64,000 nucleotides of DNA. Source: Xiphophorus maculatus (lineage: Eukaryota; Chordata; Actinopteri; Cyprinodontiformes; Poeciliidae). The DNA is taken from the NCBI RefSeq assembly GCF_002775205.1, contig NC_036456.1, positions 25,703,850 to 25,767,849 of the forward strand, given 5' to 3'. This document shows positions 1,272-44,379 of this stretch, in pieces (position 1 is the stretch's first letter; each line of letters begins with the position of its first letter). The translations under genes were made by a program, and so were the position numbers. Under the pieces are notes generated by a model. It had not been told where the DNA came from. It saw only the letters and a list, made by a program, of their open reading frames with translations, and ran no database searches.

Positions 1272-1391
1272 TTAAATCTTATTTAATCTCTACACAACAC
1301 AGAGCAGATATGACAGGGGATTTGACTGTAGGGCATAAAGGACAGAAAGACAAAGAAATAAATAAAAACATCTAGAATGTAGCAGAATTAC

Positions 1392-2142
1392 CTCAGAGCT
1401 GGGAGGATGGTTGTCTGCGGTGATGTGTTGGCTTTGCTGATGTCAGATCGGATCCTTAGTTCAACATTAGTCACAGCTTTCCAGTTTATGATATTCTGTA
1501 TGTTACTTAGCCAGTTTCCACTTGCAAATCTACAATGAAAGTAGAGATAATTTACAACAGTCTGATGCATTTTGCTGTTTTATGCCTTTAATTAGAGGAA
1601 TCCAACAGATTCCTCAAGATTTTTTCAAGATTTTTTCCAGATATCTTGTGATTAGCCGAGCCACTGATATTTTAGAGTAGGCGCGTTAGATATAATATTT
1701 CCTCAGGAATATTGGAAGATTATAATTCAGTAAAGTGTCCAGAAGGACTTACTGAAGTGTAAGTGGAGAGTTGCTTGTCAGCTGTCGAGACGTCACTGCT
1801 TCTCTCTGGCACCATTCACCAATAATTTCATCAACTTTGGTTAAACCAAGGATCTGGGTCTCAGTCCCACAGTTTCCAGTGCAAGACCAAGTGTCAGTGT
1901 ATATGCATTGGTCATAGCTCACTTTGTAGTGAAGCTCAACCTGCAGATTTAAAGTGAAAAGGCGGTAAGTACAATCAAATGATAAAAGAGTAGATTTGAG
2001 AATCCCCAAAGATTTAACTTACAGAAGTAGATCCGTTTAGGTAAGCCTCCTTTGGGTCGTAGGTCATCATGACGCCATAGAAATGTGCAGCGTATGAATG
2101 GCTGACCAGCAGCAGCAGCAGCAGAACCACAGAGAGGAACAT
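1392..2142 (-). CDS. Gene A: 5' part of tandem secreted-protein gene (exons 1-3)
   Basis: Partial gene running off the left edge. Exon 1 is 2023..2142 (ATG at 2140-2142). It encodes a leucine-rich signal peptide starting MFLSVVLLLLLL, followed by HFYGVMMTYDP. Exon 2 is 1753..1940 (188 nt, start phase 0) and exon 3 is 1392..1529 (138 nt). All three donors are GT (gtaagt, gtaagt, gtaatt) and both acceptors are AG. Exon lengths, phases and motifs (CTGNCGTE and GEWCQRE in exon 2; W-K-A-V-T-x-V-E-L-R and SPQTT in exon 3) match genes B, C and D. The next exon, with the DPDGD motif, is not found in 1..1391 and is presumably outside the window. Function is not recognised; a secreted or cell-surface role is inferred from the signal peptide. 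It lies about 2.8 kb downstream of gene B in the same orientation. Confidence 0.8.
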
Positions 2143-4917
2143 GATGACTGTGAAAGTGTCTCCACACAAAGTCTGAGTTTGTTAGAAACCAGGAGGATTG
2201 ATGGTTTGGCAGCATGTGATCCGCGCCCTCTCACTGTTTACTGTCCCGGAAATGAAAATGTTTGTCTGTGGCTTTACACAGAAACCTGGCATGAGGAACA
2301 TTTATTTGACTGAAAGATGATGATCAGAGATAAAGTGAGTGAAGTGAAAACAAGGATGTGCACTAAGTATTATTTATGAATGTATGTATATCTGTGAGCA
2401 GCCATCTTCTTTATCAATGCCCGGTTGTGGCTTAACTTTCTTGTAGACGTTGTCAGTGTGTGACAAAGATTTATAGTCACCAGTATTTCCTGTGGTTGTG
2501 TCTCCACCAGTCATAATTACACATCTTCTCATCTCATTACCTTCACTTAACATCAACCACTTTGTCTCTTCTGCTCAAACAATAAAGAACTCAGCATCTC
2601 AGTGCATAATAACGTCTTTTGTTTGAAAGATTACCGTGTCTGTAGCTATCAGGTGTAACTGTATGCAGGAACAAAGCTGCAGTCTTTGCAAATAGTTGGC
2701 AGAAACAGGAGAAAACCACTGAGTAACTGGAATGATTCACACGAGGAACAAGGAAGAAATTCCCTGTCAAGACTCCAGCAACTCTTGAAATTCACGAAAA
2801 CAACTTTAATAGCAGAACAAAGCATTTCAGTCCCACTGTCACAAAGACACTTCAAAACCCAAAGAAAAGGAGAAATCTACCAAAATATCTTGATTATCAT
2901 TTTGTAAATGGTTTTTAAATGTGACTTAGAGAGTTTAAATCACAATTTTAGAGAAAACATGTTGGTGGAACTGATTCAAATGTTTATTTCGTTTGCAGAT
3001 TGTTTATGCTAAAAATAAAACCCAACATATAAAATATTCATCTCGTGTGCTTAGCTTTTAATATGAAACATAAAGCTGTTTTTGCTCATTCATAATCATG
3101 GAAAAGTGTTTTACAGGACAACAAAAATAAAATAAAGTAAAAGGATAAAGAAAAACATGTTAAAAAGCATAAAGAGAAACCAATTAATCAATTAATCAGA
3201 TTATTTTCATTCAAAAATTGGCGAAAACAAAAATAAAACAGAAAATTAAAAGTCTTGTCCGATTGGATTAGTAAAAATTAAATATTGTATCTCATTAAAT
3301 GACAAAACATAACTTCCTCACAAGCAAACAATCCACTTAACATTTAATCTGACTAATTTTATTATTCATATACTTACCTTCTAATTGTTTTTCACTAATC
3401 TGTTGTGAGCTTATCAGTTTGTGAAACAACAGATAAGATCAAATTTTAGAGTCGATGCCCTGAAGAAAAAAAAAGAAAAAACTGCTCCAACCAGATTCAG
3501 TTCTGGATGCTACTTCCTGTTTAAAGATCAAATCTCTGAAACGGGCTTTGATCAGAATATGTGGACTGGGCAGAACCGCTGAAGGTGTTTTCCACTGTTT
3601 GATTGACAACTGAGCAGGAAACGTCACCGCCATCGTCAGCCACGCTTTTAATATTTTATTGTTTTCTGGCATCACCCACATTGAAATTTTTGATTTCTTA
3701 GACTGACAATGAAGTATTAATGTAGTTTTTAGACGCAGGGCGAATGTTTCATTTTTTTAAAGTATTTAGTCAATTGCAGAAAGTCAATATTTACTCAACT
3801 ACACTGTAAAACACTGGAAGGTGGTTTAACTTAGGAATTTAAATCCACCTGCTGCTTTGAAAATGCAACTTAAGTCAACAAGAAAATAGTTTGGGTTTTA
3901 ACTCAGAGATTAAAGTTCATAAAGTTGATTTAATAACAAGAGACAAGTTGCCTAAACATTGTTTTTAAGGTTAATTAATTTTGAATTGTGTTTTTACTTA
4001 ATGCTGAAATTTAAACCAATTATTTTTACAACATGCAGGACAAAACCTGCACTCAGCTGGTTAAAGAGCCACATTTTTCTACTATTTTACTCACAATATC
4101 AAGTTATAATAACTACTCAGAATAATTTTAATTCTTGCTTCAAATTGCCTGAATAAAATTTCTGATATAATTAATTTTCTTAAACATCAAAATGAATTCA
4201 GCTCAGAAACATTTATCGTGAACAGGACATTAAAATAAACATTTGTCTTAATAAAACACCAGAGTCAGATCAATGTAGCGCACTTCCACCTCAGGATACA
4301 AAAACAAGCCGCTAAGCATTCTGGGAAATAGTTCTCACTCCTGTTTTTTCTTCTTTCAGTTTTTTTAAGTGCTAACCTAAAAACTCCACTTTATTCAACT
4401 TTTGGAGGTTTGACAAAATTAATAAAAAGTTAACAAAACTTATATTATTGTAAGTTTATCTTTCACAAACTCACATTTAGGTTGAAAATCTAAAACAATT
4501 TTATTTGACTTTAAGATAGTAGATAGTAGACACAACTAAATGCGGCTCAAATGTTTTACAGTGCATTTAAGATATTAAGCTGAATAAAAATCCCAGAGAT
4601 ACAAATGCTACACATGAACACAGAGGAGTAATCCCTCTGTAAATATCCGCTTTAATAAAAACGTGATGCCAAATATTGACCTTATTTACATTGGTTTACC
4701 TTATATTGATAACCTATAATAATAATTTGTGAAAGTTTCCCTATTTTATAAAAAAAAACTATTGACACAAACTAAATTTACTGAAAACAACCATAACTCC
4801 CTGAAGTATTTAGAATATACAAGAATTAAAAACAGATTAAATCATATTTAAACAGATTAAATCATATTTAATCTGCTTTTAATCAGATTAAATCAGATTC
4901 ATTCTAATATTTGGCCA
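2143..4917. other. Intergenic A-B: no gene seen
   Basis: AT-rich. It holds the gene A upstream region, the CACTGTAAAAC-bounded element and the gene B 3' flank. Open frames here are short and lack splice context or domains. Confidence 0.6.
3803..4563. mobile_element. MITE-like element with CACTGTAAAAC termini
   Basis: cactgtaaaac at 3803-3813 and its exact reverse complement gttttacagtg at 4553-4563 bound a 761-bp AT-rich non-coding stretch. It lies between genes A and B. Confidence 0.5.
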
Positions 4918-4928
4918 CTAGGGGGCAG
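4915..4928 (+). promoter_or_regulatory. CTCF-like motif at gene B stop codon
   Basis: CCACTAGGGGGCAG matches the vertebrate CTCF core. The CTA of the motif is the gene B stop codon read on the other strand. The homologous position in gene C also carries a match. Confidence 0.5.
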
Positions 4929-7900
4929 CTGTTTTATTAGCTGGACCGAATCTGCGCAGGCGAACCTTTATGTCTGCAGGCAGCCCTCCTGCAACCAGTT
5001 TACCTTTAATCTGCAGAAGAAAACATGAAATCTGTGTTAGATACAGTCATTTAAAATCTTCTCATTAAAAGTGGAAAAAAGTCAAGTGTTTAATTTAACT
5101 ATCACAACACAATATTTTAATAAAATAAAGATTTATAGAGAAGAGGAACTTTATATTATTGTAGATATGAAACATAAAATCTAGCAATCTAGTTTTCTAG
5201 TTTTTAAAATCTCATTTAAAAACTCTACAACCTATATATTAAATGTTGATAGTTTTTCTATTATCTTTGGATTTTTTGTGTTTTTCTCAGCAACAAGATC
5301 TGGATCAGTCATTCTTTACAAACTTTTGCTTTATTTGGTGAAGTTTACTAAAATAAATTGTGTAAAAGCCACTGAATGTTTGTGGTTCTGTTTAGTATGA
5401 AATTTTAGTTCTTCCATATTTAAGAGACTTTATTTTGTGTCTTTTTTGAAAAGCAGTGACATTTTTTTTAACTGCATCAACCTCCAAACTGGAGCTGGAG
5501 AAACAAGTTAGAGTTGCAATCGAGGGCCAAAAACTTGGACACCTCTGCTTTATTTATTTATTTATTGCAAACAGATAAATAGTAAAAACAGGGGAAAAAA
5601 TCATAATAAAACAGATTATTATGCGCATTGACATGCAATTTTACATCATTTGTTCGAAAAGAAGCAGACAGAAGATTTCATGACTTCCTGCTGTCATGGA
5701 AGAAATTACTTTAGCAAGAGTCTGGATGAGAGGAAATAAGGAATTTATTAAAACCTTGCAAGGTGAGAACAGCAATACAGAGTCGTAGGAATCTGTCAAG
5801 TCTGCTCTGACCAACAGTGGATCTGGTTTCCTTTTATAGGTGGTCAGAGAAGAGAGACTTGATTGGACTATAGGTGTGAATCCCTGATTGTGATGTACCA
5901 GAGATTCTGTGGAGACCAACACAGATAGTCTGGCCATTTGTCTATTGTTAAGGAAAGGAGGTTGATCTTTCATGCTAACGGGTTCAGATAAGTCCTGATT
6001 TGGGGAAGTAACACTTAGATCGTCTCCAGAGTCAAGCAGCTCCTGCTGTTATATGACACTGTGGAGGTCTATGTGAAAGCAGCTTGACCAAAATCATGAT
6101 AAGATCATGCAGACACATGATCTCACAAAAGGGGTGAATTTATAAAATGCAAATTATAAAATGTTCCATTGCACTGCCCGTCTTTTATTCATTACAAACA
6201 TTTAAGTTTCCCCTCACCAGATAAACTCTTAAATTATTCCCTCATTTAAACCTCACATTCTCATCCTACAATGTACAATTATTAATGCATTTTTTAATAA
6301 CAAAAATAGGCCCATCCTATACACCACATTTTCTTTTTGAACAATTTTTAAGCTGGTTTATATTTGTATGAATTGCGTGGAAGTTGATTGTTTCTTACTT
6401 TAAAGATTAATTTAAGTTATGAAATGACATTCGGGATAAATTAGTTTGAATTAAACTCAATTTGTGATGATTTGGGTTAAAAACCAGGACATCACTTACC
6501 GCTTTCTCGATTTCGTCTTGTTTGTCTTTCAGTGACACCGTAGTGGAGATCTTCAGCTTCACAACCGTAAGACGAGCTGAAAGAACTAGAGATAAACATG
6601 GTGTAAAGAACTACTTCCTGTTACCTTCACTCCTGTTTCCGTCTTACTACTTACATTTAGTAAGTAGTAAGACTTACATGTTGTGGGAGGAGGACTTGTA
6701 GTTGTCAAAGGGACAGTCATTGCAACAACAGTTGAAGCTGATAGAAATATCATAAGTTTATGAAATAAAGTTTTAAAAAAGTAAGAATAAATCAATTAAC
6801 TCCCTCACCTTTTCCAACCGTCACAATAACACACCGAAGCTCAGACTGGTAGATCGAACTGGAGACACAGTGGAGATAATTCAGTGCAAGAAGACATTTA
6901 ATGTGTTAAATACAGAGTTGGGTAGCAACTAGTTACATTTACTTGAGAAACTTTTTTGGGGAAAAAATGTACTTTTAGGATAATTTTTAGTAAATACTTT
7001 TACTTTAGTAACTTAATTATCAAGTATTTCTACTCTCATTTGAGGATGTTAACGGTGGAGCATCGTGTAATGCGACCTGTATCCGATCTTTCCATGATGT
7101 CTCAACAGCACAGATCGATTCTTGCGTATCCGGTACGTATCCGATTCTAACGCGACCGAACGTCACTGATACTCGACAAACGTCACTATTCTGCGTCCTG
7201 ATACGAGCAAGCGGAAAGAAAAACAACAACTATGACGGACTTTAAAGAGGATTAAGTTGTTAATATGCTGCTCCGGTCAGACAACAACTTCAAATATGTA
7301 AGTTATGCTCCACCGTTAGCATCCATGTTTACATCTGCAAACACTGAGCACTTCTTCTTCTTTATGACGGTTGGCAGAACGCTGAGAACGCAGACGCTAT
7401 TGCGCCCTCTACTGCGCATGCGGGACACTTTCAGGTCGTTTGCCGTTCACACTGGAGATCACATTCAGGTCGCATTGGAAGTGTGAACGGTCATGACCTC
7501 TGACATTTACATATTTTATACTCTGACAGTGTTGGACATTTTTCATAAACTGTCATATTTATTATCATCACTATGAATGTGCAAATACTGACCTTGCTTG
7601 GACGATGAAACAGATGGGGTGGCTCTGTCCATCTTCACGTAAAGATGGCGTCCACTTCAGGGTGAAGTTCCCCGGTCCTGACGAACTCTTGACCACGTTG
7701 TACGGCCCGCTGAACAGGACCCCACTGATGCTTTATCGATTATAAATACAGGTTTACTATGTGATGTTTACACTGCAAAAACACAAAATCTTACCGACTG
7801 TTTTTAGTCTGGGCTTTTATCTTATTACACTTGAAATAAGCAATAAGTATAGGAGCTTGATTTAAGTAAATAATTCCTTAATACTGATGAAAAAGTGCAG

Positions 7901-10900
7901 GTTCTATTGGCAGATAAATTTACTTATAACAACCTTGCTTGGACAATAAAACAGATGGTGGCACAGTTGCCTTGCAGTAAGAAGGTCCTGGGTTCGATTC
8001 CCAGCTCGGGGTCTTTCTGCAGAGAGTTTGCATGTTCTCCCTGTGCATGGTGGGTTCTCTCCGGGTTCTCCGGCTTCCTCCCACAGTCCAAAAGCATGAC
8101 TGTCAGATTAATTGGTCTCTCTAAATTCTCCCTAGGTGTGAGTGTGTGTGTGGTTGGGGGGGGGGGGGGGCTGTGCATGGTTGTTTGTCCTGTATGTCTC
8201 TGCGTTGCCCTGGGACAGACTGGTGACCTGTCCTACCCCACCTCTCGCCCGAAACGTTCACTGGAAATAGGCACCAGCCGACCCAACTAGAGACAAGGGT
8301 GTTAGAAAATGGATGGATAAATGGATGAAGACATTGGACACCCCTGGCATAGCGTGTCATGAATGCTCAGGCTATTCATCAACGGATTTTCTGTAACTGA
8401 GAGTAGTTAGCACATTTAGCAACGAGTACATAAGGATGATTGACAGCGCTATCCTCTTGGCACTGATTGGTTGTTTTTGGTCGTTAGTGGTGCATTTCTT
8501 CAGACAGCAACAGCAGCTCAAGGAGGAGGTTGAGGAGATTGATGTTTTCACAGATTATTTGTCTCCTAACAAATATGGTAATATAAAACATTTCGTATAA
8601 AATAAAAGTAACAAACTGCAGCTTTAAGCCAAATGTTACCAAACACAACCTGATTTAAATAAAGCACCTGCTCTATTTATCATACTGGATTCATTGTTTG
8701 TGTGTTTTGCGTTTCCTTACTTAGACTGAGCTGCTTCTGCCCTGATTTTGATCTCCAGAGTCTGACTGACGGGGCTGTAGAACCGAGCTCCATGTTCTGG
8801 AGTTGGAAACACAAATCTGGGCAGATAAACGCCGTCTGTGCAGGACAGAGCAGCAGAACCCACTGGAACACAGCAAGAGAGAAACAACCTCAGTCTGAAC
8901 TGAAAATATTAATGCAGAACTGTTTGTGTGTAAATTATGTCTACGGCACAAATTATCCTGCAGAAACGTGTTTAGAAGATGAAACTTCCTGTGATAATGT
9001 ATTACATCACAGTACATCAGCATATTAGCACAATTATTTATTTCAGTAATCCCATTCAACAAGTGAAACTCCTGTTTCTACTCAATTCATTACACAATGT
9101 TAGATATTTAAAATGTTTATGTCTTTTACTGTGATGAGTAAAGTTGAAATAATATAAATTAGGATCAATGAAAAAGGAAATTTAATGCAGGTCGGACGTA
9201 CGGATGGTTAATTTTATCTCCTTTTAAACTTTAATTTGTCAGATTCCCAGCTGCGCTGCTGAACACAATCAACACAACTAAACACCTGAAATTATTTGCT
9301 CCTTGTTGTTGTTACTATGGTAACCAGGTGATCAGTTGACTGTACCTTGAAAAGCAAACTGGACAGGAATCTTGCTGATTGGATTGTTGGTAGTTTTCAC
9401 CTCCTGTGACCCGTTAGTCTGAGTCAGAGTGATGGATTGTCGGGGGAAATCCTCCATCACCATCTGGACGGCGTACCAGCCTTCATCACTGCTGGAAGTT
9501 GCCCTGAATGACAGGATGCAGGTCTGCAAAATCAGAAAAATTTAAATAATCCTAAGGGAAGCTGCCAGATTAGTACACTGCATTTTGTATTTAAATAAAT
9601 CTTACGGCAGGTTGACAAAAACGCCTCAAGTTTGACACTTTGAATACAGACGATGCTGCATTCTCACCAAGCGCGTTTCGCGTCTCTGGTTTACATTCAA
9701 AGTCCATGTGGAGGCGCGTCAGATGCATCAGCATCGCTCTAGCCGTTGTTTTCCTTTGCCTGCTATTTGTAGGATGCCTTGGATGCACTTGACGTGTCAA
9801 ACGCTCAAAATCTTGCCACGCTAGACATGTGAAACGCGTCGTGACGGGCCCTCGACGCTCCTCCACATAAGCTTTGCATGTATAGCAAACGCGCCTGACG
9901 CTCAAAATGCGTTTGGTGTGAATGCACCATTAGTATTCTAAGCATTTTAGCAGTGAATATCACCACAAACTTATTCTAGGGACAAAGTAATTCCCACCAA
10001 AAGTGAAATAGCTGAAGACAAAGACGTAGCTATTTTACATTTTTGAAGAGGCTTGCCATGTAAGTGAAAAATCTGCCAAAGTCGCTTAAACTGGCTCTGC
10101 TAAATATAGAATTCTTACCAGCAAAAGGACTTTTACTATTATGCTCATATTATTGTAATTTTTTTGTTAAATATTGATCATATATATCATATTATATATG
10201 ATATATATCATGTAGCATTTTGAACTGAATGTGTTGTAGAAATAAATCTCCTTGTTACTTACAGGTGAGAGGCTGAGAACAACTGGAGGCGTGCAGGGCG
10301 AGTCGCACTCTGATGAGGAAAGTTTGGCATATCTGCATTTAACCTTGTCTCCATCGGGGTCAAAGGCCAACAGGCTAATATTTCTCTGACAGTTTGAAGG
10401 AACGCTGAGGGAGAAAAGATACATTCATTACTGTGGAACACGGCTGTATTCACTTCTTGTTGTCCCATTATTAATGTTTTGCTCTTTTTCCCTGATTAAT
10501 CTTATAATTTATACATTTTTAAAATTCCTTATTGGTGCCTATAAATTGAGGCATTTTTCCTCCTTTGATGATATATATATATTAATTGCTAGAATACAAA
10601 AATATTTAATAATAGTAATAGTAATTAATTTGATTCAATTTGATCCAAATGGGAAGTCTGGATTGTAGCACTGTTGTCCAGCTGTAATAATTAATAATAT
10701 GAGTTACAGCAACATTTAATTTCCCTCTGGGATCAATAAAATACTTTAAATTTCAATATGAAGGTTTCAGATTCCAGCCTAATTAAAAATAACATCTAAT
10801 TAAAATCTCTTTACTGAAACTTCTGCTCACAATTGTTTCACAGTCAAGTCTTGCAAGATCACTTAAAACTTAAAATTAAAAGCAGTTTATTTTTTCCAAA

Positions 10901-11536
10901 AAGCTATTCAAATGAAAACATCTGATTTTACTCCTTGTAACTCACAAAATATTCGTCCAATGTCCAGCCTGCTGCCGACAGATAACTCATCTAAATATGG
11001 ATTTCACTAATTATATCCAAGTTTATAATTTTCTTTTCATGAATTTCATAACTTGTGATCCAGATGGCAGCAGAATCACCTCAGAGCTGGAAAGATGGTG
11101 GTTTGTGGTGATGAGTTGGGTTTGTTGGTGTCGGACCGGGTCCTCAGTTCAACACCAGTCACTGCTCTCCAGGTTACAATGGCATGACAATTATCTAACC
11201 AATTTCCACCAGTAAACCTGGATTGGACAATCAGAAAAGGTTTTCAGACGGAGTCAAAAACGTCTCTTATAATTTCAGATCTGTCTCAATAAATAACCGA
11301 ACTTTCCAGTCAATGATGAAACACGCGATAAAGAAAGTTTGTAATGTTATAATTTACTAACTACTTTTTTTTTTTCATTTTAAAATATAGACATTTATTT
11401 TACAGCAGAGTACAAGATACATGATGTGGTACATTAGTGGAGAAACACAAAATAAACAAACAAACAAAAAACAAGGAGAATATTGTGTATTAATGAATGA
11501 AGATTAATAACTGTGTGTGTGTGTATGTGTGCGTGG

Positions 11537-11567
<31 letters not shown>

Positions 11568-13856
11568 GGGGTGTGTAAGTAGTAATGGTGATCTGAATGA
11601 CATTATCAATGTGTGGAGCAATTGGAAAAAAAACAATTGCTCCACACTATTATTATTATAATAAAAAATAATAATTCTAAATCAATTAATTATCTGAGAG
11701 AGGCATATAGACATACATTGGATCATTTAATAGATTTTATAAATTATTTCCACTAGGGGGAGTTTGTTGTATTGTATACAGGAACTACATGGGATGAGAA
11801 AGGAAGAATAATGCAGAAAAAAGGGAAAAGCAGAGAAAAACAATGATTATAGTACATAAGTTATGTTGTTTATAGTATAAAAGAGCTTCTGAGTTTCTAC
11901 ACCATGTTCCAAATTATTATGCAAGTGATATTTTCTCAGGTTTTCTTAAATGATCAGTGCAAATGATGGTCAGTATAATTTTCAAGTCATGAACTATTAC
12001 AGTATAAATCAAATTTTACTGAACAAAGCTCCCCATGAGAACAGTATTTCTTTCAAAAATTAAAAACTCAAAATGCAAAATGTTCCACATTATTATGCAC
12101 AGCAGATTTTCTAAACATTTTATGGATTATAAAGAACTGCAAACCATCATTCTTTGAATGTGCAGCATTAAATGGTCACATGAACTAAAATCAAAAGCTA
12201 TTTCAATCAAAAACATTTTAACAGACAGAGTTACATGTTAACATGGGACCTTCTTTGATATCACAGCACAATTCTTGATCCATTGAACTTGTGAGTTTGT
12301 GGAAAGTTTCTGCTTGAATTTCTTTGCAGGATGTTAGAAAACCTTCCCAGAGCTGCTGGTTTGATATGAACTGCATTCAGATCTTCTGCTTGAGGAAACT
12401 CCAAAGGTTCTCAATAGGGTTGAGGTCAGAGGTCAGAGGAGGATGGTGACCACACCATGAGTTTCTCCCCTTTTATGCCCATAGCAGCCAATGACACAGT
12501 GGTATTCCTTGCAGCATGAGATGGTGCCTAGTCATGCATGAAGATGATTTTACTACAGAAGGTACGGCTCTTCTTTTGGAACCATGAAAGAAAGTGATCA
12601 GTCAGAAAGTCCAGATACTTTGCTGAGGTCATTTTCACACCTTCAGGGTCTCTGAAGGGGCCGACCAATGATTCTCTCCCCATGATTTTGCCCCAAAGCA
12701 TGACTCCACCACCTCCTTGCTGACGGCCATCCACCACTGCGTCCATCTGGACCATCCAGGGTTGCACATCAGTCATCAGTGAACAAGTCTGTTTGAAAAT
12801 TAATCTTCATGTACGGCTGGGCCCACTGCGACCGGTTCTGCTTGTGAGCTCTGGTTAGGGGCTGAATAGTAGCTTCATGCACCGCAAGCCTCTGGAGGAT
12901 CCTCCACCTTGAGGTTCCAGAGGCACCAGCAGCTTCAAATAACTGTTTGCTGCTTTCTAAGGGCATTTTAACAGCTGCTCTCTTAGTCCGATGAATGTGT
13001 CTAACAGAACCTTCCTCATTCTGCCTTTATCTGTACAAACCCATCTTTGTTCTGAATCAGCCACAAATCTCTTCACAGTACGATAACGTTTCAGTTTTCA
13101 TTAAATATCTTATGTGTTCATACCTTGTCATCCGGCTCTACACTATCTGATGATTTTTGTCAGCAGTGATTCTTTCTCTTTCCCATATTGCTTGAAACCT
13201 GTGGCCTGCTTAATAATGTGGAACATCCTTCTTCAGTAGATTTCCTTTAATTGAGCTCACCAGACAAACTAATCTACCAGCTCTGAAATTAATTATAGTA
13301 ATTGAAAGAGCCCTGACACACAATACCATCTATAAATTTAATAGCACAACAAAAAAATTAATCTTTATGACACTTAGATCTGATTTACATAATAATTTGG
13401 GACACGGTGTAATTTTGCTCACATTGATGATTTAAACAGCCAAATGTTGCATTAGACATTTAAATGTGGACTCACGCAAGCTGAAATGGAGAGTTGTTGG
13501 GAAGCCGCCGAGTTGTGATTTTTTCACTCTGACACCAAGAACCACTCACTTCCTCAATCTTGGTATTTACAAGAATCGTACTTTCAACACCACAGTTTTG
13601 AAATGTGCAGCCAAATGTACCATCTTGGCAAGAATCAAAGTTAAACTTTACGCGAAGAATCACCTGTTGGTTTTTAAGAAGTGAGATCAAGTTTTAAAAC
13701 ACTTAAAAACAGAGAAATGTATAAATAATTTGTACTTACGGAGATGGATCCGTCTGAGTTAGTTTCTGCTGGGTAGTAAGTCATCATAGTGCCACGATAA
13801 TGAGTGGATTGAGCATCGCTGACCAGCAGCAGCAGCAGCAACGCAGAGAGCAACAT
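4918..13856 (-). CDS. Gene B: secreted protein, complete, 11 exons, 440 aa
   Basis: Exons: 13740..13856, 13476..13663, 11080..11217, 10263..10404, 9346..9523, 8721..8862, 7593..7730, 6809..6858, 6678..6737, 6500..6576, 4918..5010. These sum to 1323 nt in one frame, ending at TAG (4918-4920). Residues 1-17 are a signal peptide (MLLSALLLLLLVSDAQS). Then come GTMMTYYP; a Cys-rich exon 2 block with SGSWCQSE; exon 3 with W-R-A-V-T and V-E-L-R-x-R-S-D; exon 4 with AFDPDGDKVKCRY (acidic DPDGD loop); exon 5 with EDFPRQSITL; exon 6 with SCTDGVYLPRFV and PTPEHGA; exon 7 with GQSHPICF; exon 8 with SELRCV. Exon 9 is a short Thr/Pro stalk, probably O-glycosylated by inference. Exons 10-11 end in IKGKLVAGGLPADIKVRLRR. 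No transmembrane segment follows the signal peptide, so a secreted product is inferred. I know no named family. Introns contain Tc1, SINE and MITE insertions. Stop and last exon overlap a CTCF-like motif. Confidence 0.85.
5011..6499 (-). other. Gene B last intron
   Basis: About 1.5 kb. The 110-codon frame at 5641..5973 has no recognisable domain and no splice support. Nothing else is identified. Confidence 0.5.
6905..7037 (+). repeat. AGTACTTTTACTTTT-type dispersed repeat
   Basis: Starts cagagttgggtagcaactag, then atgtacttttaggat and aaatacttttactttagtaa. Same family as 322..512. Confidence 0.5.
7044..7324. mobile_element. Inverted-repeat element (281 bp) in gene B intron
   Basis: Left arm ggatgttaacggtggagcat (7044-7063). 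Right arm is its reverse complement at 19 of 20 positions (7305-7324). The interior is rich in CpG (taacgcgaccgaacgtcact), unlike its surroundings. No gene. Confidence 0.55.
7395..7500. repeat. Short CpG-rich inverted-repeat fragment
   Basis: ccgttcacact and agtgtgaacgg form an inverted pair around ggagatcacattcaggtcgc. It looks like a transposon terminus fragment. Confidence 0.35.
7776..7932 (+). repeat. Teleost dispersed repeat fragment
   Basis: Begins cactgcaaaaacacaaaatc and contains cttattacacttgaaata and aggagcttgatttaagtaaa. It is recognised as a common fish repeat by pattern only. Confidence 0.45.
7955..8330 (+). mobile_element. SINE-like element with pol III B box
   Basis: tRNA-like head with ggttcgattcc (perfect B box) after cagtaagaaggtcctg. 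The body contains gtttgcatgttctccctgtg and cttcctcccacagtccaaaa, then a (tg)n and poly-G stretch, ending in an atggatggataaatggatg tail. Plus strand, antisense to gene B, within intron 6. The overlapping 131-codon frame is not a gene. Confidence 0.7.
9655..9930. mobile_element. MITE-like CpG-rich element in gene B intron 4
   Basis: gcattctcaccaagcgcgtt on the left and gcgtttggtgtgaatgc on the right are imperfect inverted repeats. The centre is CpG-rich. The 104-codon open frame within has no domain. Confidence 0.45.
11515..11576 (+). repeat. (GT)n microsatellite
   Basis: Interrupted GT repeat of about 60 bp between exons 2 and 3 of gene B. Confidence 0.9.
11900..13409 (-). mobile_element. 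Tc1/mariner-like transposon with broken transposase
   Basis: About 1.5 kb between TA dinucleotides (11898-11899 and 13410-13411), with inverted termini CACCATGTTCCAAATTATTA and, reversed, CACCGTGTCCCAAATTATTA. The minus strand encodes transposase pieces in different frames: 12769..12966 (SKQLFEAAGASGTSRWRILQ) and 12528..12776 (GGGVMLWGKI, IIFMHD). Around 12367..12440 is a DLNPIENLW-type motif typical of Tc1/mariner DDE transposases. Frames are interrupted, so it is inactive. It sits in gene B intron 2. Confidence 0.8.
12360..12966 (-). pseudogene. Degenerate Tc1/mariner transposase
   Basis: Fragments of a DDE transposase inside the 11900..13409 element: helix-turn-helix-like part, GGGVMLWG block, and NPIENLW block. 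Stops and frame changes separate them. Confidence 0.7.
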
Positions 13857-13996
13857 GTTGCAGCAATCTGACTCTACAGGAAAACTGAGCTGCTGGAGAT
13901 CAGGAGGGTTTATACTCCCACAGGAAGCCTCTCCTCTCAGTTTCTACTGACGTCTACTGAGTTTTAACATGGATGTGGGCCAAATATTCACATTCA
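13857..13996 (-). promoter_or_regulatory. Gene B core promoter and 5' leader
   Basis: A TATA box (TATAAA on the minus strand) lies at 13909..13914, about 53 bp upstream of the ATG. Initiation around 13880 is inferred. The block up to about 13996 is almost identical to the same region of gene C, and identity stops abruptly at about 13996. Confidence 0.6.
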
Positions 13997-14719
13997 ACAT
14001 GATTATCATGCAGGAAAACAAAAAGAGAAAAACAAACCGATGCCATACTGAAAAATCAAGAAATGCAGGAAGTAAACTGAAGTCAATTTGCATATTTCTA
14101 TTTAACTGCTTCTTTTAAAACATCAATGAGGCTTTATTGTAACGGCTCCATTTAATCTTCACTCTTTCCGCTTGGATCCAGATAATTTAACTCACTATTT
14201 TCACTTCATCATTGATTCTAGCAGCTGTTTAGTTTGTTTTTGTGTTTTGTTTTGGGCTTTTTATAACTAACTGCAACATCGAGTAGGAAAAAAGAATCCC
14301 TGGCCAAGCAGGTGGAGCCCTAATGTTGTAAATTTGAATAATGTTTGAATGTTTGCAACGTTATGAAAGAAGAGCCTTTTGTATGGCTGAGTCTAAAAAT
14401 ATGTGATTATTTTTTACGTTTATATTTGAGAAATTTATGCAGCTCTAAATTACTTGTTTGAGACCATCATGTGAAAGATAAACTAAAATTATTTTGTAAT
14501 AAACGTATAAATTCATCACTGTTTTTTTTTTTTCCAAACACTGAAATTGATTGAGTTAGATACCTGCGTTCAGGGTAAGAACACCTGAGCACAGGTAAAT
14601 GATTATGAGATAAATCTGTTTTCCTTCAACAGCACCTCAATTCTGACAATTTAATAACTTTAAAGTTACTTTGAAATATAAATATGTTCAGCTTCAAATA
14701 TATGTAAAGTTAAATATTT

Positions 14720-15140: not shown

Positions 15141-15237
15141 TTCATCTATATATTCATTGTGATTATTTTTGTTCAGTAGAGAAAATTATTTCTCAAATAT
15201 TGTGCAAATAAGTGCAGCAGTACTTTAAAATAACGTT

Positions 15238-31002: not shown

Positions 31003-31081
<79 letters not shown>

Positions 31082-34000: not shown

Positions 34001-35663
34001 CTTTTGCTTTTTGTAACATTTTGTCACAACACCTTCCTCTGACAGATAAACTAACACAAATAAATAAAAGAATTATGACTGAATGTATTATTTTCATTTA
34101 TTGAAATTAGTTTCAATTATTGATAATTACACAGCTTCTCATAATATGCTACCATTTAGAAGAAGAATGGATTTAGAAACCAGCAGAATTACCTCAGTGC
34201 GGGAACCACGGTGGTTTGCGGTGATGAATTTGGTTTTTTGGTGTCGGATCGCCGCCTCAGCTCAACGTCGGTCACCGCTCTCCAGTCCACAATCCCATTT
34301 AAATTAGTAAACCATGCATTGCTGGAAAACCTGTAATCAACATTCGTTATAGGTTTTAACAAGAACGTTTATTCAACTTCAGCTCTGTGTCATTAAATCA
34401 TTGACTTATCTTTAAAGATTTGGTATTTAGTGGAGCTAATAAAGCTTCTGAGTTTCTAATCTCTCCTCATATTGATGATTTAAACCAGGAGGTCCAAACT
34501 TTTGCCAAATGGGCCAAAATTGTAGGCACCTAAAATCAAGAAATTAAAGTAGTTTGATATTTATTGTAGATCCAAAACTTTATGACGGTTTATTAGGGCC
34601 GTTGTAGACGGAATAAAATTTGTAAATTTTCACCTAAAACTCAATAACTTTGTGCTTAATCTCAGAAAATTTCCAGAAAAGTTTTCAAAATAACATTTTT
34701 CATTTGAAATACAGAAATTACCAAGGATTTTGCAAAAACAAAATTCTGATATTAATCTAAAAATTTTATTTTTTTTAGAAAATGTTAAGATTATTTGAGT
34801 TTTTTGCATAAGTTCCTATTTACTACTAATTTAATTTTGGACGTTTGCCGTACTGAAAGAAAGACATTTAGCTTTCTTTTTTGGGGCTCAGTAATAAGAA
34901 CAGGATTTGGGTCTCTTTCTTTCAAAACATTTGCTATTTTTAGCCAAGTTTAAGAAAGAGTAAAAGCTGACTTGGGTGCAGTAAAGTCACATCTTCAGTC
35001 AAAGTCTCTGTAAAAATTTAGTTTTACCTTTTGCTTAAACTTGGTTATAAAGAGACAGATACTTTTTGTTGTACTTTGTACAAAAATCATGTTGGTAACA
35101 ATTTTTACCGATTACAAATTAAAAATCTCCTTTTGCATCTCCATCTGGACAAATTTGTATAATTTTTAAATTGCAGCTGGGGGCCGGACAAAATCAGTCC
35201 AATGGCCACAAACGGCCCCCGGGCCAAACTTTGGACACCCCTGATTTAAACAGCCAAACATTTAGACATTTAAATGTGGACTCACGCAAGCTGCAATGGA
35301 GAGTTGTTGGGAAGCAGCCGAGTTGTGATTGTTTCACTCTGACACCAAGAACCACTCTCTTCCTCAATCTTGGTATTTACAAGAATCGTACTTTCATTAC
35401 CACAGTTTCCAGAACAATCATAAGTACCATCAGTGCAGGTTTGGTGGTTAAACCTAAAGCGAAGAATCACCTGTTGGTTTTTAAGAAGTGAGATCAAGTT
35501 TTAAAACACTTAAAAATAGAGGAATGTGTAAATAATTTGTACTTACGGAGATGGATCCGTCTGAGTTAGTTTCTGCTGGGTAGTAAGTCATCATAGTGCC
35601 ACGAAAATGAGTGGATTGAGCATCGCTGACCAGCAGCAGCAGCAGCAACGCAGAGAGCAACAT
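16753..35663 (-). CDS. Gene C: secreted protein, 10 exons, 430 aa, with a 12.4-kb repeat-filled last intron
   Basis: Exons: 35547..35663, 35286..35470, 34193..34330, 33466..33607, 32022..32199, 30671..30812, 30190..30327, 29508..29557, 29320..29408, 16753..16866. These sum to 1293 nt, ending at TGA (16753-16755). It is close to gene B in exons 1, 2 and 5 (signal peptide MLLSALLLLLLVSDAQS; THFRGTMMTYYP; PLLAFDPDGD; EDFPRQSVTL; SPTPEHGAQL; GQSHPICFVV). The Thr-rich exon 9 of B and D is absent. The exon before the terminal one is 89 nt instead of 77. The terminal exon (IKEELITNRG..., VRLL) is homologous to those of B and D. It sits beyond the tandem repeat array, so the last intron spans 29319 to 16867. 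If that intron is not spliced, translation stops at 29284-29286, 12 codons past the donor gtcagt, giving a 404-aa form. Which form dominates cannot be told from sequence. Function not recognised. Confidence 0.8.
16763..16777 (+). promoter_or_regulatory. CTCF-like motif in gene C terminal exon
   Basis: CCACCAGGGGGCGCC is a near-perfect CTCF core, lying in the terminal coding exon of gene C just before the stop. It is the positional homologue of the 4915-4928 motif. Confidence 0.5.
16992..19604 (+). repeat. Array unit 1
   Basis: 2613 bp. Contains CRE TGACGTCA at 17907-17914 and hairpin 17746-17828. It joins unit 2 through a short AAT-rich junction without the 55-bp tail. Confidence 0.75.
17746..17828. 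repeat. Fold-back hairpin, unit 1
   Basis: The left arm is gtagggcaatgctgccctct. The right arm ends agggcagcattgccctac. The inner right arm is rearranged (gtgggcagcagagggc), as in unit 2. Confidence 0.7.
19605..22270 (+). repeat. Array unit 2
   Basis: 2666 bp. CRE at 20522-20529 and hairpin at 20362-20443. It is the only internal unit ending with a copy of the 55-bp tail motif (about 22217-22270), directly abutting unit 3. Confidence 0.75.
20362..20443. repeat. Fold-back hairpin, unit 2
   Basis: Same structure as the unit 1 hairpin, including the rearranged inner right arm. The left arm starts tagggcaatgctgccctct. Confidence 0.7.
22271..24428 (+). repeat. Array unit 3
   Basis: 2158 bp, shortest unit. 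CRE at 22882-22889 and hairpin at 23029-23124 with two full arms. It lacks about 500 bp present in units 1 and 2 around the hairpin. Confidence 0.75.
23029..23124. repeat. Fold-back hairpin, unit 3
   Basis: Near-perfect inverted repeat with arms of about 40 bp, from gtagggcaatgctgccctct to agggcagcattgccctac. It is the most complete hairpin of the array. Confidence 0.8.
24429..26744 (+). repeat. Array unit 4
   Basis: 2316 bp. CRE at 25041-25048, hairpin at 25317-25412. It closely resembles unit 5 around the hairpin. Confidence 0.75.
25317..25412. repeat. Fold-back hairpin, unit 4
   Basis: Arms of about 45 bp with few mismatches (tcgatttact against tcgaattact) around an AT-rich centre. Confidence 0.8.
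26745..29032 (+). repeat. Array unit 5
   Basis: About 2290 bp. CRE at 27357-27364, hairpin at 27633-27728. It leads directly into the 55-bp tail tandem repeat. Confidence 0.75.
27633..27728. repeat. Fold-back hairpin, unit 5
   Basis: Arms of about 45 bp, essentially perfect, around a short aaatagtttcatt centre. Confidence 0.8.
29033..29255 (+). repeat. 55-bp tail tandem repeat, four copies
   Basis: Copies begin (acagtacagatac) at 29041, 29096, 29151 and 29206, an exact 55-bp period. Each ends cgggcctaat. The block ends 29 bp from the gene C intronic stop at 29284. The same unit occurs once at the end of array unit 2. Confidence 0.9.
29656..29731 (-). mobile_element. SINE-like 3' fragment
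   Basis: catccatccatccatat tail with gtgctggtgcctattttc. This is the 3' end of the same SINE-like family, reversed. Gene C intron 8. Confidence 0.5.
31004..31080 (+). repeat. (AATC)n microsatellite, about 19 copies
   Basis: Perfect tetranucleotide run of about 77 bp followed by aagtttatttgtatag. Gene C intron. Confidence 0.95.
31095..31662. mobile_element. hAT-like non-autonomous element
   Basis: Starts gccgggatgtcgaactcag and ends taggtttgacac, with internal agggccggttgtgcc and gcgggccagatttggccccc. This is the pattern of a widespread teleost repeat. Termini are degenerate and no clear target duplication is seen. Gene C intron. Confidence 0.5.
33795..33840 (+). mobile_element. SINE-like 5' fragment
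   Basis: gtaagaaggttctgggttcg with the B-box part ggttcgaatcc. Fragment of the same family in a gene C intron. Confidence 0.45.
34486..35243. mobile_element. hAT-type non-autonomous element (758 bp, 8-bp TSD)
   Basis: Perfect 8-bp direct repeats atttaaac flank it (34478-34485 and 35244-35251). The termini CAGGAGGTCCAAACTTT and, reversed, CAGGGGTGTCCAAAGTTT are imperfect inverted repeats. There is no coding capacity. It lies in gene C intron 2; the homologous gene B intron has the empty site. Confidence 0.8.
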
Positions 35664-35803
35664 GTTGCAGCAATCTGACTCTACAGGAAAACTGAGCTGC
35701 TGGAGATCAGGAGGGTTTATACTCCCACAGGAAGCCTCTCCTCTCAGTTTCTACTGACGTCTGCTGAGTTTTAACATGGATGTGGGCCAAATATTCACAT
35801 TTT
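35664..35803 (-). promoter_or_regulatory. Gene C core promoter and 5' leader
   Basis: The TATA box on the minus strand is at 35716..35721, at the same spacing from the ATG as in gene B. The sequence is nearly identical to 13857..13996, so B and C should respond to the same inputs at promoter level. Confidence 0.6.
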
Positions 35804-38365: not shown

Positions 38366-41300
38366 TCAAGCCGTCCTGTGGAGGCGTACGTTCATGCTTG
38401 TGTGCAGCCCTCGTCTAGTCAGTTCATCCTTAATCTGGTTTAAAAAAAACAAGAAATACAAATAGTGTCATCAGTTCCACATAAAGAAGAAAATGATCAG
38501 TGTTTGTCCTCAGACATTAGAAACAAAACCAAACTAAAAATCTGAACTGAACCAAAGGAAGGAAAAACTGGCCTTTAGTTGACAGTAAACTGGTAAAACC
38601 AGCAGAATCAACAAAGTTACTGACCTGTTTGACGAGAGCATCATAATAATTCTCCAGTGATAATGTAGCTGAGATCTTTCCTCTGAGAGCTACAACATAA
38701 TCTGGAAACAGAGTCGTAGTAATTAGAGGGGCTGCGTTCGACAGAGGGGAGGTTGAGTTGGTTTAAATACTGCTGGGAGTTTAATGGTTGTTATGAGTAG
38801 AGTGGATTATTAACTTACCTCCATAACTTGAATTATTACATTTTGAACTTGAAATTTGATGGTTTACAGTGAACACCTGGATTTTTCTGAGAAACTTCAC
38901 TCTAAATAATTTGCAGAAAATCTGAATTATCTGGGATTTTTTTCATAGGCATAAATAAGAAATTTTAAAGAAAATGCAACATGGAAAGTTTGTAAAAGTG
39001 AAATGCTGCTTGACTTTCTCTTGACTGGTGTTCAAAGCAGCCAATCCAGGAGCGGCATTCGTTTACACTGACGCTACCCAAAGAGGGTAAACCAGGAAGA
39101 CTGTAGATGTTCTCTTCTAATTTTTCCAATGTATATTAATATATGACAAACTATATTTTTGTTTAAACTATAAAAATAGGCAGTTTTAAGGAGTCATAAG
39201 TCTCAATTCAGTTCTTGGAAGGCAGTTCAGGTTTATAAACGTTGTGAATATCGGAGGTTCACTGTAATAAATAAAGAATAGACAGATGTGTGTCGTGAAT
39301 AAAGTAAACTAACTAAATTAATTTTAAATCTCTGGTTAAATTTGAGGAAAATCCAACTTTTTGCAATTTTTTTTGTAGTGCAAGTCTACAATATAAAAAT
39401 ATGCAGTTTTGGTAACTGAAATACCCAATGCTACTTGACTCGCTATTGACTAGCGTTGACGTCAGCCAATCAGCAACAATTGTCCTTACTGCTGATTGGC
39501 TGAACCCCAACAGTGAACATCAGGAAGGAGTGCTAAAGCCGTTTCCACTGTGTGCATTAATGAATATTAAGGTATATTCAGTGAACTACTAAAATAGGCA
39601 GGTTTAAGTATTTTTAGGTGGTGTGTCATGACACTGGTCTGGGTGTCGGTGTCAACATTGGGTTGTATGGTTGTTAACATCATGGGTTCAGTTTTTTGTT
39701 TTTGGGTGGTTGTGGTCATGGATGTTGGTAATGAAACTGGTGTTGCTGTGGTTGAAGTCACTGGAGCTTGATGGGGATTGATTGGTTGGTTATAGTTGAC
39801 ATTGTTTGAGTCTTTTGTGGTTGTTTTAGACAACATGGATACAATTCCAGCTGATCAGTTTTGGAAATAACCAACAAAATATTTAAAAGAAAAACAAAAT
39901 TAACTTACAGTTTCCAACGGTCACAGTGACACATCGGAGGTCAGAGTGGTAGGTGTTACTGTTGAAACTGTGGAAATAAACCAATACAGAAGATTAAATC
40001 ACATGTTCAGATGTAGCCTCACAAGGTTCTAACAGAGCCACGAATTTCTTTCTGTCCAATTCCTAAATGTTATTGAAAAGAGTACATTAAAACACACTGT
40101 CTGGTTTTGGCTCTTTCTGATTATTTATGGGGATTTTTAAAAGGATGGTGCTTTTGAGCCAAGGAACTTCAGCACCAGCCGAAGCCGGTAAGTTAAAAGA
40201 AAGCTTAAAAATAAGACGACAAAGCAAAGCACACCATAACAAATTAAGAATTTAATTCAAAGCACAATAAAATGATGCAGTTAAAAAGATAAAATAAATC
40301 AAAGAAGAAAAGTGGTGTTAGGTTCTGGACTCTACAGGACTCAGTCCAAAATCAATATCTTATAATCATTAACCTGTTGATCCACCATTCAGCCTTGAAG
40401 AACGCTGACATTGCTACCAAACTGAAGCTTCTCAAAGCAACAGTTAAATAGTTTTTCAAGGTTTAAAATGTTAATTTCTTCATTCTTTCTGAAATTGAGT
40501 CTATTATTTGTCTTAACTGAGCAATATCTCTAAAAATTTTACTCAAACTCACATGAATCTGGTTGATGATCACTTAACTCTTTGTTGTTGTTTAACATAT
40601 TCAGACTTTTCTCTTTTCATTTTGAAGTTGTGTGACGTCCATCCAACATTATAATAGTACTAACCTCGTCTCGACAACAAAACAGATGGGGTGGCTCTGT
40701 CCACTTTCTCTTGCGGATGGTGTCCACCTCAGGGTGAAGCTTCCTGATCCGGATGAACTCTTAGATACATTGTGAGGCCCGCTGAACAGGAGTCCAGTAA
40801 CGCTTCAACAGGAAACAGATATTGCAGTCGTCATGCAAATATCAGCCGCACGTGAAAATGGCTGGCAAACAGCTGCGCAATTATACAACCATACATCTTT
40901 GAAGAGCAGAAGTGGAGCCTTCTGAATATAGCAAGAGGTTTCTGGGTGGTGAGTCAACAACAAAACACTTGTCTTTTCCAGCAGCCATTGTACAGCACAT
41001 ACAGCGGTAAAACCAGTTAACAAAATAAGCTGGAGCTCAGCTTGTGTTGCTAGGTAACGGGCTGGGCGTCATTTTGGTTGCTAGGTGACGGGTAGTCCCT
41101 GCTGATTTGTGACGTTACATTCCTGCAAATTTTCCAGATACCAAAATCAGCTTTGTGGGAACTTTTTAAAGATCTTGGTCTGTTTTCAGAAGCAGTCGAG
41201 ACTCAAATGGAAGACCAGAAACAAGCAAAATGTCAATTTTATATAATAAGTCCACTTTAAGAGGATTTTTATTTTTTTTTTAGTTTGAAAAAAGCTTCAG

Positions 41301-44300
41301 GATAAATGTATTTTCTGTTCCAATGTTTATATTTTGCGTTTTTAATGTTTGTGTTTGTCAGTAATTTGCCATTTAAATTTCCTGAAGTAAACTACAGTAT
41401 CTCTGCAGCAAAGGTCAAAATTTGAAGCCTGTGATATGGGTTCCCTCACTTACTTGGAATGAGTTGCTTCTGCTCTGATGTTGATTTCCAGCACCTTATT
41501 GACTTGGATGAATTTCTGAGCTCTGTTGTCTGGAGTTGGAGGCACAAATCTGGCCACATAGGATCCTTCAGCACAGGATGGCACCTCAGGAATCACTGAA
41601 GAGTTTTAGAAAAAGCGAGAAACACAGATACGAAATCAAATAGTGCAGCAGATAAAATAATACGTTAGTAGAAGCTTTCTAATGGTGATACAAGCACCAA
41701 ATGTGGCATAGATACTTAGATCCCAGATATCCACCATTTTCAAAATGGCTGCCGTATAGGGTGCAGAATTGTTACATTTTGCTATAAATATGGAAAGACT
41801 GGCCCAATGTAGAGGATTCTGGGATCAAATTGTATATTTTTGACCGTTTGAAAACCAAATCTGGGACTTTAAATCTCTCAGCATTTATGAGGTTCAACAG
41901 TTTGACTCTAATTTTTCTGAATATCTTGGTTCAGAATGAAAATTCTTGCAATTTGTGTGTTTATTTAGACAAAGCAATGGACAGAGAGAATTCAGAAAAT
42001 CAAAGATCAAAGCTCAGCCAAGAAATTGACTTTTTTTAAATCAAACAAAGCCCTTTCGTACCTGTAGAAGAAGAAGATCTAAATATGGGGTCGTACCTTT
42101 CAAGGCAAACTGTAAAGGTATCTTGCTGATGGCGTCGCCGGTAGTTTTCACTTCCTGTGAGCCGCCGGTTTCAGTCAGAGTAATGGTCTGTCTGGGAAAA
42201 TCTTCTATCACCAGCTGGACTGCGTAACGAAGTTCAGAGCTGGTGCTGCTTACAGGGGAGCTGAATGTCAGAGAACAGGACTGCAAAAAGAAGAGAGACC
42301 AAAATATTCTAAATTACATGACAGAAAGTTAAATACCTGGTTTAATTTACGCCCACCCTTATAAATTACACTTATGCTGTTTATTTATAGATTCAAATGT
42401 GACTCTGCAGAAGCAGAACTGAAATAAAACTAGTGATGATAGAAGTAGATTTAACACAATTAATGACAACCTAACAACCTATATCTATGCTAAATATATT
42501 TAGATGAGACACAAGTAAAACATTTCAGTAACTGCATAATTTATTAATTACACAAACATTTCTTACTTACTGATGAGACATTGAGGACAGGCGGAGGATT
42601 ACAGGGGTTACACTCTGAATCTGTTGTTTTCCCATATCTGCATTTAACCTCATCTCCATCAGGGTCAAAGGTCAACAAGTTAATAGTTCTTGGGCAATTT
42701 CCTGGAACTCTGAGAGAAAATAAAAAGGATTACAGCCATAGCTGAACGATGCCCAGAGGGGTATGAAAAGTTGTATTTTATTAAATTCAATAAAAGGCTG
42801 AAGTTTGAAATTTGAAGTCGACTTGATTATAACATGACAAAGATGCTAATGCTAATAGAACTACCTTAAAGCTGGGAGGATGGTGGTCTGTGGTGATGTG
42901 TTGGGTTTGCCAATGTCGGACCGGTTCCTCAGTTCAACAGCAGCCACAGCTCTCCAGTATCCAACACCATTTGAAATGCTGTTTATCCACCCTCCGCCAT
43001 CCAATCTGGAGCGGAAGTTTAAGTAGAAGTATTCAAACTTTACAAATTGTTTGATGTAGTGTGTGTTTCCACATTTGTTAGGCCCAACAAGAAAAGGTTT
43101 ATTTGTATTTCCAGGAGCTGATAAACTGGGGACATAGAGTTACTTTCGCCGGTTCACTTTTAATTGATGCGTGTTGGAGATGTGCCTGTGCTCTTGTGGG
43201 TCAGGTCCAGTGACACAGTGTGTGTACCCTGTGATAATATCCTACAGGCGCTCCTGGAGTACGCTATACTACTAATGTGCATAAATAAATAGATTAATAA
43301 AAACTAAGATGAAGCTGAATTAGGTGTAGTTTAAGTCCAGCAGTCTGGCTGCTGAAGTGTAGAAACTGTTCCTCAGCCTGGTGGTTTTGCTCTGGATGCC
43401 CCTCAGCCTCCTGCCTGAGTGGAGCGGCTGGGTGGAGACCTTGATGATGAGGAGTGACCCCCTCCTGCTGTGTACGGGTCCGAGGTGGAGGAAAGGCTGC
43501 TCCCCACAGTCCTCTGCAGAGCGATGCTCTAAGCAGAAGTGCAGCTACCGTGCCACACGGTGATGCAGGTGCAGAGAATGTTCTCCACCACATGGAGATA
43601 GAAGCTCCATATTTTTATTGTATTTAATCAAGTCTAGAGAACCCCAAAGTGCTTCACGCTACATTCAGTCACCCATTCATGCAAACATCCACACTATCAT
43701 GATGGGAAGCTCTTGAAGTGATAGCTGTCAAACTCCCACCACTATTGTCCATTAGGTATTCCAGCTTCACAAATTGTATTTTATTTTGAATATTTTAGAT
43801 AAGCTCTATGTTGTATTTCTTCAAATTATTTGGACTTATGTCCCTTAGAATAGGTGAATCCACAAATACACAGCTGTCCACTATAGTGTATATTATGACA
43901 TTCAAAGTCCAAAATGTAATAGTGCAAGTTATACAGGTAAGTTCAACACTCAGTCAGTCAACTGTGATTTTAAATAGTCAGGCTACATTTGGTAAGACAT
44001 TAAAATGGACTCACTTAGTCTGAAATCCAGTGTTGTTGGGAAGCTGACAAATTATGATTCCTTCTGTCTGACACCATTCACTGCTAACTTTGTCCACTTT
44101 GGTTAATGGAAGCGTCTGAGTCCAAGACCCACAGTTGCCATCGCAGTCCCAGGTGTCACTTTGTGAGCACCCGACAAAATTCTGCTTGTAGCGAAGGATC
44201 ACCTGTGGATTACATAGAGGTTAAGTAGCATTAAAGGCAGCCATACGTTACAAACAGTGCCCACTTACTGATACATATCCGTTAGTTTGAGTTTCCCCTG

Positions 44301-44379
44301 GGTAGTAAGTCATCATAGTGCCAAGAAAATGTGTAGCTTGTGAACCGCTGACCAGCAGCGACAGCACAAAGAGAAACAT
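38366..44379 (-). CDS. Gene D: secreted protein, most diverged paralogue, 10 or 11 exons
   Basis: Exons: 44269..44379, 44015..44202, 42865..43005, 42571..42709, 42097..42280, 41454..41595, 40665..40802, 39909..39958, (39635..39850), 38625..38701, 38366..38434. With the bracketed exon the model is 1455 nt (484 aa); without it, 1239 nt (412 aa). Both keep frame. The signal peptide is MFLFVLSLLVSGSQA. Family motifs are kept: GTMMTYYPGE, SSEWCQTE, TFDPDGDEVKCRY, EDFPRQTITL, CAEGSYVARFV, GQSHPICFVV, SDLRCV. The optional exon encodes a Thr/Pro-rich stalk of about 70 residues (for example TTATPVSLPTSMTTTTQ), a longer counterpart of gene B exon 9. Its donor (A|gtgtca) is weak, so it may be alternatively used. 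Small codon indels relative to B occur in exons 3, 4 and 5. It is the most upstream member in the direction of transcription. Function not recognised. Confidence 0.8.
40820..41265 (+). repeat. Dispersed repeat shared with 520..881
   Basis: Contains cagcagccattgtacagc, ggttgctaggtgacggg, tgtgacgttacattcc and aagtccactttaa. It lies in gene D intron 6 (between the 41454..41595 and 40665..40802 exons). Confidence 0.55.
43330..43600 (+). repeat. Retroposon-like fragment in gene D intron 2
   Basis: GC-rich block (gaaactgttcctcagcctgg, ctcagcctcctgcctgagtg, gatgcaggtgcagagaatgt) unlike the AT-rich intron around it. It resembles a fish LINE-associated fragment; class uncertain. Confidence 0.4.
43640..43765 (+). 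repeat. Dispersed repeat fragment
   Basis: aaagtgcttcacgctacatt followed by cacccattcatgcaaacatc, a pattern recurrent in teleost genomes. Gene D intron 2. Confidence 0.4.

Follow-up and report, generated by a model that had tools for sequence, protein, structure and literature searches.

What kind of protein is encoded by the tandem gene family that occupies a 64,000-nucleotide stretch of Xiphophorus maculatus contig NC_036456.1 (C14:25703850-25767849, hereafter the window)? The original prediction, made from the sequence alone, described four genes, A to D, for secreted proteins of no named family. With somewhat better than even confidence, we take the window to hold the edge of a large tandem array of genes for secreted proteins built on a three-domain ectodomain of the type found in the Dictyostelium Sib proteins and acting as soluble adhesins or opsonins. 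The proposed order would be a leader, an N-terminal PKD-like domain and two cadherin/immunoglobulin (Ig)-like domains, the first of them with a DPDGD loop.

The four genes lie on the minus strand in the order B, C, A, D, and spliced models bear out the predicted family with its repeated exon code at the predicted coordinates (Table 1). From exon 2 onwards lengths and phases recur with small differences: 188/138/142/178/142/138/50/60/86/93 nucleotides in A (86 becomes 77 with an alternative acceptor), 188/141/139/184/142/138/59/77/69 in B, 185/138/142/178/142/138/56/89/114 in C and 188/138/139/181/142/138/50 or 59/variable/77 in D. All hand-placed introns have GT/AG ends, and those placed by the splice script necessarily do, as it allows no others. 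B is 56%, C 71% and D 55% (over 148 residues) identical to A. A common exon structure is expected by descent among tandem duplicates and is unremarkable alone. As for the gene limits originally given, the start of B (44379) and the end of D exon 3 (1392) stand, whereas the rest of D lies beyond the window start, on C14 below 25703850, and the last exon of C (16866-16753) had been overlooked by eye because a tandem array of 2.2-2.7 kb units lies in the last intron of this gene. Five copies of this GC-richer unit, together with a 55-base repeat, occupy most of the intron (16900-29300), and the open frames found there on both strands look repeat-derived. Within the window no motif listed as common to A-D occurs in all four genes, each being present in two or three: GTMMTYYP and EDFPRQ in three (D has GVMMTYDP and EDFPLQ), GQSHPICF in three, WCQSE and PTPEHGA in two, and DPDGD in A-C, the D copy falling outside the window. 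Each protein begins with a hydrophobic leader, directly followed by domain 1, which starts with [TA]H[FY]xG in A-D and [GA]YxG in the paralogues designated the E-N group. Behind the third domain come a linker that varies in length and in several genes is rich in Thr and Pro (exon 6737-6678 in A), and a tail of about 40 residues.

The predicted abundance of copies was borne out. In the flanks examined (120 kb below the window and 40 kb above) more copies were present only on the lower side: E, H, J, L, M and N gave near-complete models, whereas G (exons 1-4), I (interrupted in exon 3 by a stop), K and a partial copy located at C14 25591517-25593967 are incomplete. Searching the whole 704 Mb assembly (101 contigs) with protein A gave at least 100 matches, a lower bound with 95 of 220 candidates scored, all on C14 in blocks at 25.38-25.75 and 26.45-26.61 Mb. 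By hand count at least 31 of these are of the exon-5 type, 28 in the first block and three in the second, each standing for one exon copy and not implying an intact gene. The head-to-tail arrangement holds for the four window genes; it is not strict array-wide, because 2 of the 28 first-block and all three second-block exon-5 matches lie on the plus strand. One plus-strand second-block copy, L051 (C14:26459000-26468999), was modelled from exon 5 onward including the tail; the exons upstream of exon 5 were not found within that stretch. An array of this kind might also be a largely neutral product of unequal crossing-over, with little function and many copies decaying, and the fragments and stop-bearing copy (G, I, K and the partial copy) fit such an account, as does domain 1 of the E-N group, where amino-acid and silent changes stand in a ratio close to 1. 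We regard it as highly improbable: the models chosen for A-D, E, H, J, L and M contain no stop codon, albeit with a script that disfavours stops, and domain 2 is constrained, with ratios of 0.28-0.34 for A against B, C and D.

Sequence searches starting from the fish proteins returned little. There was no match to protein A in the PDB, none of meaning to A and B in NCBIfam, and with tblastn one plasmid match at E 3 and none in phages; on viral contigs 29 pattern matches (fish alignment) and 68 (bacterial alignment), and on genome contigs 16 (fish alignment), yielded no confirmed case. Relatives were obtained with a degenerate DNA pattern for DPDGDxVxCR[FY], which retrieved six loci from a prokaryote genome collection, labelled Myxococcales, Kofleriaceae or Deltaproteobacteria. 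All six open frames have a leader and an A[TS]HFR start and then run colinear with the fish module, the mature start of which is [TA]H[FY] in A-D and [GA]Y in the E-N group. Among single blastp matches the best reached E 6e-9, and the profile comparison gave E 4.4e-10. Because the six loci had been chosen by motif, the motif was masked in re-tests; the profile comparison then kept its register at E 1.6e-4 with a probability of 50%, the best of 60 column shuffles giving 0.024. When 95 open frames were ranked by a hidden Markov model (HMM) of the fish module, the nine modules of the 282-genome survey described next came out on top, six of which had never been selected by motif (L036 only at E 0.12), and the model matched all six seed-locus genomes. 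The bacterial profile found a module-length match in 9 of 282 Myxococcota genomes and any match in 20, three of the nine having supplied rows of that profile. The fish module is related to the bacterial module. The Myxococcota surface proteins in question (L001-L006, L032-L037) share the colinear module and a similar mature N-terminus with the fish proteins and differ from them in the length of their open frames (478-2441 amino acids) and in the fish tail, which was not seen in them. The tails behind their SIBA-E_N-type module include TSP3-like, Cys-rich, RTX calcium-binding and Flg_new repeats and one weak MYXO-CTERM end.

It is through these bacterial proteins that a named family comes into sight. 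SIBA-E_N (PF24907) scores over the Pfam cutoff in 8 of 11 bacterial relatives, namely five of the six seed loci and three of the five newer loci scanned (L033 was left out). Nine fish modules were scanned, four of them from the same genes as proteins A-D and five lacking part of domain 1; one, paralogue M, matches PF24908, the second Ig-like domain, at E 1e-4 (22.8 bits, cutoff 27.8), and PF24910 appears weakly in two, M (0.19, in domain 3) and E (0.063). Because the bacterial relatives carry SIBA-E_N and paralogue M weakly matches PF24908, the fish proteins most likely carry a three-domain Sib-type ectodomain. This assignment would be a chain of evidence, made of bacterial intermediates and a weak match, and not one decisive match, and the same holds for the likeness in domain order, Dictyostelium SibA-E having, like the fish proteins, a leader, an N-terminal domain and two Ig-like domains in the same sequence (PF24907/PF24908/PF24910). 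The view that no named family is involved would accordingly have to be given up, the module being related to the SibA-E ectodomain by way of myxobacterial intermediates and that one direct match.

The Sib proteins themselves sit in the membrane as type I receptors and carry a VWA domain, talin-binding NPxY motifs and a glycine-rich transmembrane helix (PMC9197732; PMC9453864; PMC4510845). A search of the fish proteins revealed no such feature: Pfam gave no VWA match at E up to 10, the complete proteins A, B and C having only 415-443 amino acids, the cytosolic NPxY motif is absent from all eight proteins searched, and no glycine-rich transmembrane helix was detected, the best 19-residue hydropathy past residue 25 being 0.85-1.28 in seven of the eight (D was taken without its tail). 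Since there is no NPxY motif and, in seven of eight proteins, no second hydrophobic stretch above 1.28, the fish proteins should be soluble, and the predicted secretion agrees with a leader and the lack of a clear membrane helix in these seven. The array would represent a soluble, tandem-expanded vertebrate use of a Sib-type ectodomain and not a Sib receptor.

A number of results weigh against this interpretation. Pfam scans of A-D gave nothing significant. The description of the family as unrecognised is thus half right: a profile of the fish module retrieves bacterial relatives most of which carry SIBA-E_N, and paralogue M has its weak match to PF24908. No fish protein has a direct Pfam match at the curated cutoff, SIBA-E_N is matched by none of the four proteins and nine modules, and the third-domain match of paralogue E is misplaced, lying over its domain 2. 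(PF24907 searched against the fish genome also gave no match, as it did in the control genomes, which makes this search uninformative.) Residues 357-375 of gene A reach a hydropathy of 1.72, that of a borderline membrane helix; the stretch holds one glycine and one lysine and we read it as a strand plus linker. The fish-bacterial relation is a distant one, because the fish HMM matches only 3 of the 282 Myxococcota genomes, all already known. The six extra modules came from a profile begun with motif-chosen loci. Once the motif is masked, none of the six bacterial sequences is reported by the fish HMM at E up to 10, and with the bacterial HMM only D (8.2e-5) among the nine fish sequences exceeds the best of 2000 shuffles (0.0086). 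Finally, the fold search presented below barely covered domain 1. DPDGD loops are common, and much of the signal resides in the motif; single-sequence searches with the motif masked leave none of the six bacterial sequences reported and eight of the nine fish sequences at noise. Such a motif-borne signal could be expected if generic Ig/cadherin-like domains with such a loop had converged without homology to the Sib ectodomain. We nevertheless judge convergence to be very unlikely, as it is difficult to reconcile with a colinear profile match that survives masking, with the top ranking by the fish HMM of bacterial modules devoid of the exact motif, and with the H[FY] start just past the leader in fish A-D and bacterial proteins alike.

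Returning to the Sib-type reading, an AlphaFold model of the bacterial module built from six sequences (mean predicted local distance difference test score 77) has three beta-sandwich domains. Nearest to its domain 2, which carries the DPDGD loop, are protocadherin and cadherin-23 repeats, and the list for domain 3 is headed by the staphylococcal adhesin SraP (its ligand-binding region), level with other Ig-like chains; similarity was of middling Z for both. Domain 1 is PKD-like by Pfam scores below cutoff in the bacterial relatives, and the whole model retrieved only generic Ig chains with Foldseek, poorly superposed at a template modelling score of about 0.2. The likeness to solved cadherin and Ig-like structures (protocadherins, cadherin-23, SraP) is confined to the bacterial model and has no counterpart in a fish sequence-family match, cadherin repeats giving no Pfam match to the fish proteins at E up to 10. 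The expected cysteine-rich character is real, with 12 or 13 cysteines per module, and each protein has 3-9 N-glycosylation sequons, which is compatible with an extracellular rod. In our proposal the two rear domains would form a rod stiffened by calcium and disulfides, and the tail may serve oligomerisation or anchoring. The cysteines, the cadherin-like domains of the bacterial model and a Thr-rich repeat exon in gene D would also suit a structural component, in which soluble adhesive rods with mucin-like linkers cross-link extracellular matrix or mucus and ligand diversity plays no part. Such a role appears unlikely to us, a high copy number and a concentration of change in domain 1 being presumably unusual for a structural component.

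Within the E-N group variation peaks in domain 1 between REY and WINN, in a stretch rich in aromatic residues (2 of 396 windows score as high, itself included), which suggests a ligand-facing loop. Relaxed constraint is an equally possible cause of this variability, because amino-acid change in the loop is no faster than silent change (ratio 1.02). In domain 1 the pairwise amino-acid/silent ratios among E, H, J and L reach 0.92-1.28, and pN/pS in domain 3 is 2.97. Despite these values we do not claim positive selection, since by event count the amino-acid excess is not significant in domain 1 (1.00), the loop (1.02) or domain 3 (2.00, p 0.13), a result that also counts against the adhesin or opsonin reading. 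Secreted, tandem-expanded proteins with their highest variation in the first domain could also be egg-coat, ovarian-fluid or seminal proteins that use the same adhesive module and whose rapid evolution is driven by sexual conflict or by recognition between species, and tandem arrays are common among gamete proteins. In the absence of any reproduction-specific sequence feature, and with no zona pellucida domain in the Pfam scans, a reproductive role seems to us improbable. Under the adhesin or opsonin reading, domain 1 would use its aromatic-rich loop, which lies at the exon 2/3 junction, to contact glycans or proteins carried by microbes or cells, and duplication would have diversified these soluble proteins.

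How does this compare with what has been published? Our literature search found no account of this fish family, nor of a teleost 'integrin beta-like protein'. Relatives in other animals may, we presume, already be deposited under that name. In the clam, an 'Integrin beta-like protein A' is reported among the genes changed by microbial patterns (PMC7430831, excerpt); it may or may not belong to the fish family. A mussel candidate was rejected, since its listed domains are those of an ordinary integrin beta (PMC7148315, excerpt). Dictyostelium cells in which either SibA or SibC is inactivated adhere less well to particles and substrata, the loss being partial (PMC9197732). The ectodomain module may itself do the binding.

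Intron 2 of gene A contains, at 12100-13300 on the minus strand, what we take by eye to be a broken Tc1/mariner-type transposase. In intron 6, at 7930-7970, the 3' end of exon 7 (the ICFIVQA region) is repeated as a short copy upstream of the real exon, also seen by eye. The minus strand at 46235-61754 probably carries a different gene, with long low-complexity exons, an open frame of 866 amino acids and an RS-like repeat (52446-52886). A U1-type zinc finger scored below cutoff in one of its six open frames scanned, and the gene is perhaps, on our assumption, ZNF638-like.

Table 1. Coordinates of the gene models and associated features in the window.
Feature	Position	Strand	Description	Exons
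Gene B	38366..44379	-	10 exons, 415 amino acids; spliced model, introns all GT/AG	44379-44269, 44202-44015, 43005-42865, 42709-42571, 42280-42097, 41595-41454, 40802-40665, 39967-39909, 38701-38625, 38434-38366
Gene C	16753..35663	-	10 exons, 432 amino acids; last intron ~12.4 kb	35663-35547, 35470-35286, 34330-34193, 33607-33466, 32199-32022, 30812-30671, 30327-30190, 29563-29508, 29408-29320, 16866-16753
Gene A	4918..13856	-	11 exons, 443 amino acids	13856-13740, 13663-13476, 11217-11080, 10404-10263, 9523-9346, 8862-8721, 7730-7593, 6858-6809, 6737-6678, 6585 (or 6576)-6500, 5010-4918
Gene D	1..2142	-	exons 1-3 and first 16 bases of exon 4	2142-2023, 1940-1753, 1529-1392
Exon 4 of gene A	10263..10404	-	carries the domain 2 signature DPDGDxVxCRY, used as seed to retrieve the bacterial relatives	
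Last intron of gene C	16867..29319		tandem array, unit ~2.2-2.7 kb, 5 copies, and 55-base repeat 29033-29257	

Our best guess, drawn from sequence comparison, is that these genes encode a soluble, calcium-dependent adhesive or opsonin-like family with a hypervariable aromatic-rich loop in the first domain; gene anatomy, the leader with no clear membrane anchor, the size of the array and the tie to the bacterial module are shown directly, and the folds of the fish domains, calcium binding, the class of ligand and the tissue are what we infer. A bolder version, in which at least 31 secreted, loop-diversified recognition proteins make up a vertebrate repertoire on an ancient adhesive module common to bacteria, amoebae and animals, borne in amoebae by phagocytic adhesion receptors, and serve in fish as soluble microbe-binding factors, is possible though doubtful. 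A 2009 table lists Sib among eukaryotes in Dictyostelium only, with partial bacterial similarity (PMC2651865, excerpt), and SibA has been termed an Amoebozoan-specific adhesion receptor (PMC9453864). If the ectodomain does form a large secreted family in a vertebrate, the module would be older or more mobile than these papers state, and an uncharacterised fish array would gain a hypothesis for its function, calcium-dependent adhesion to particles or bacteria.
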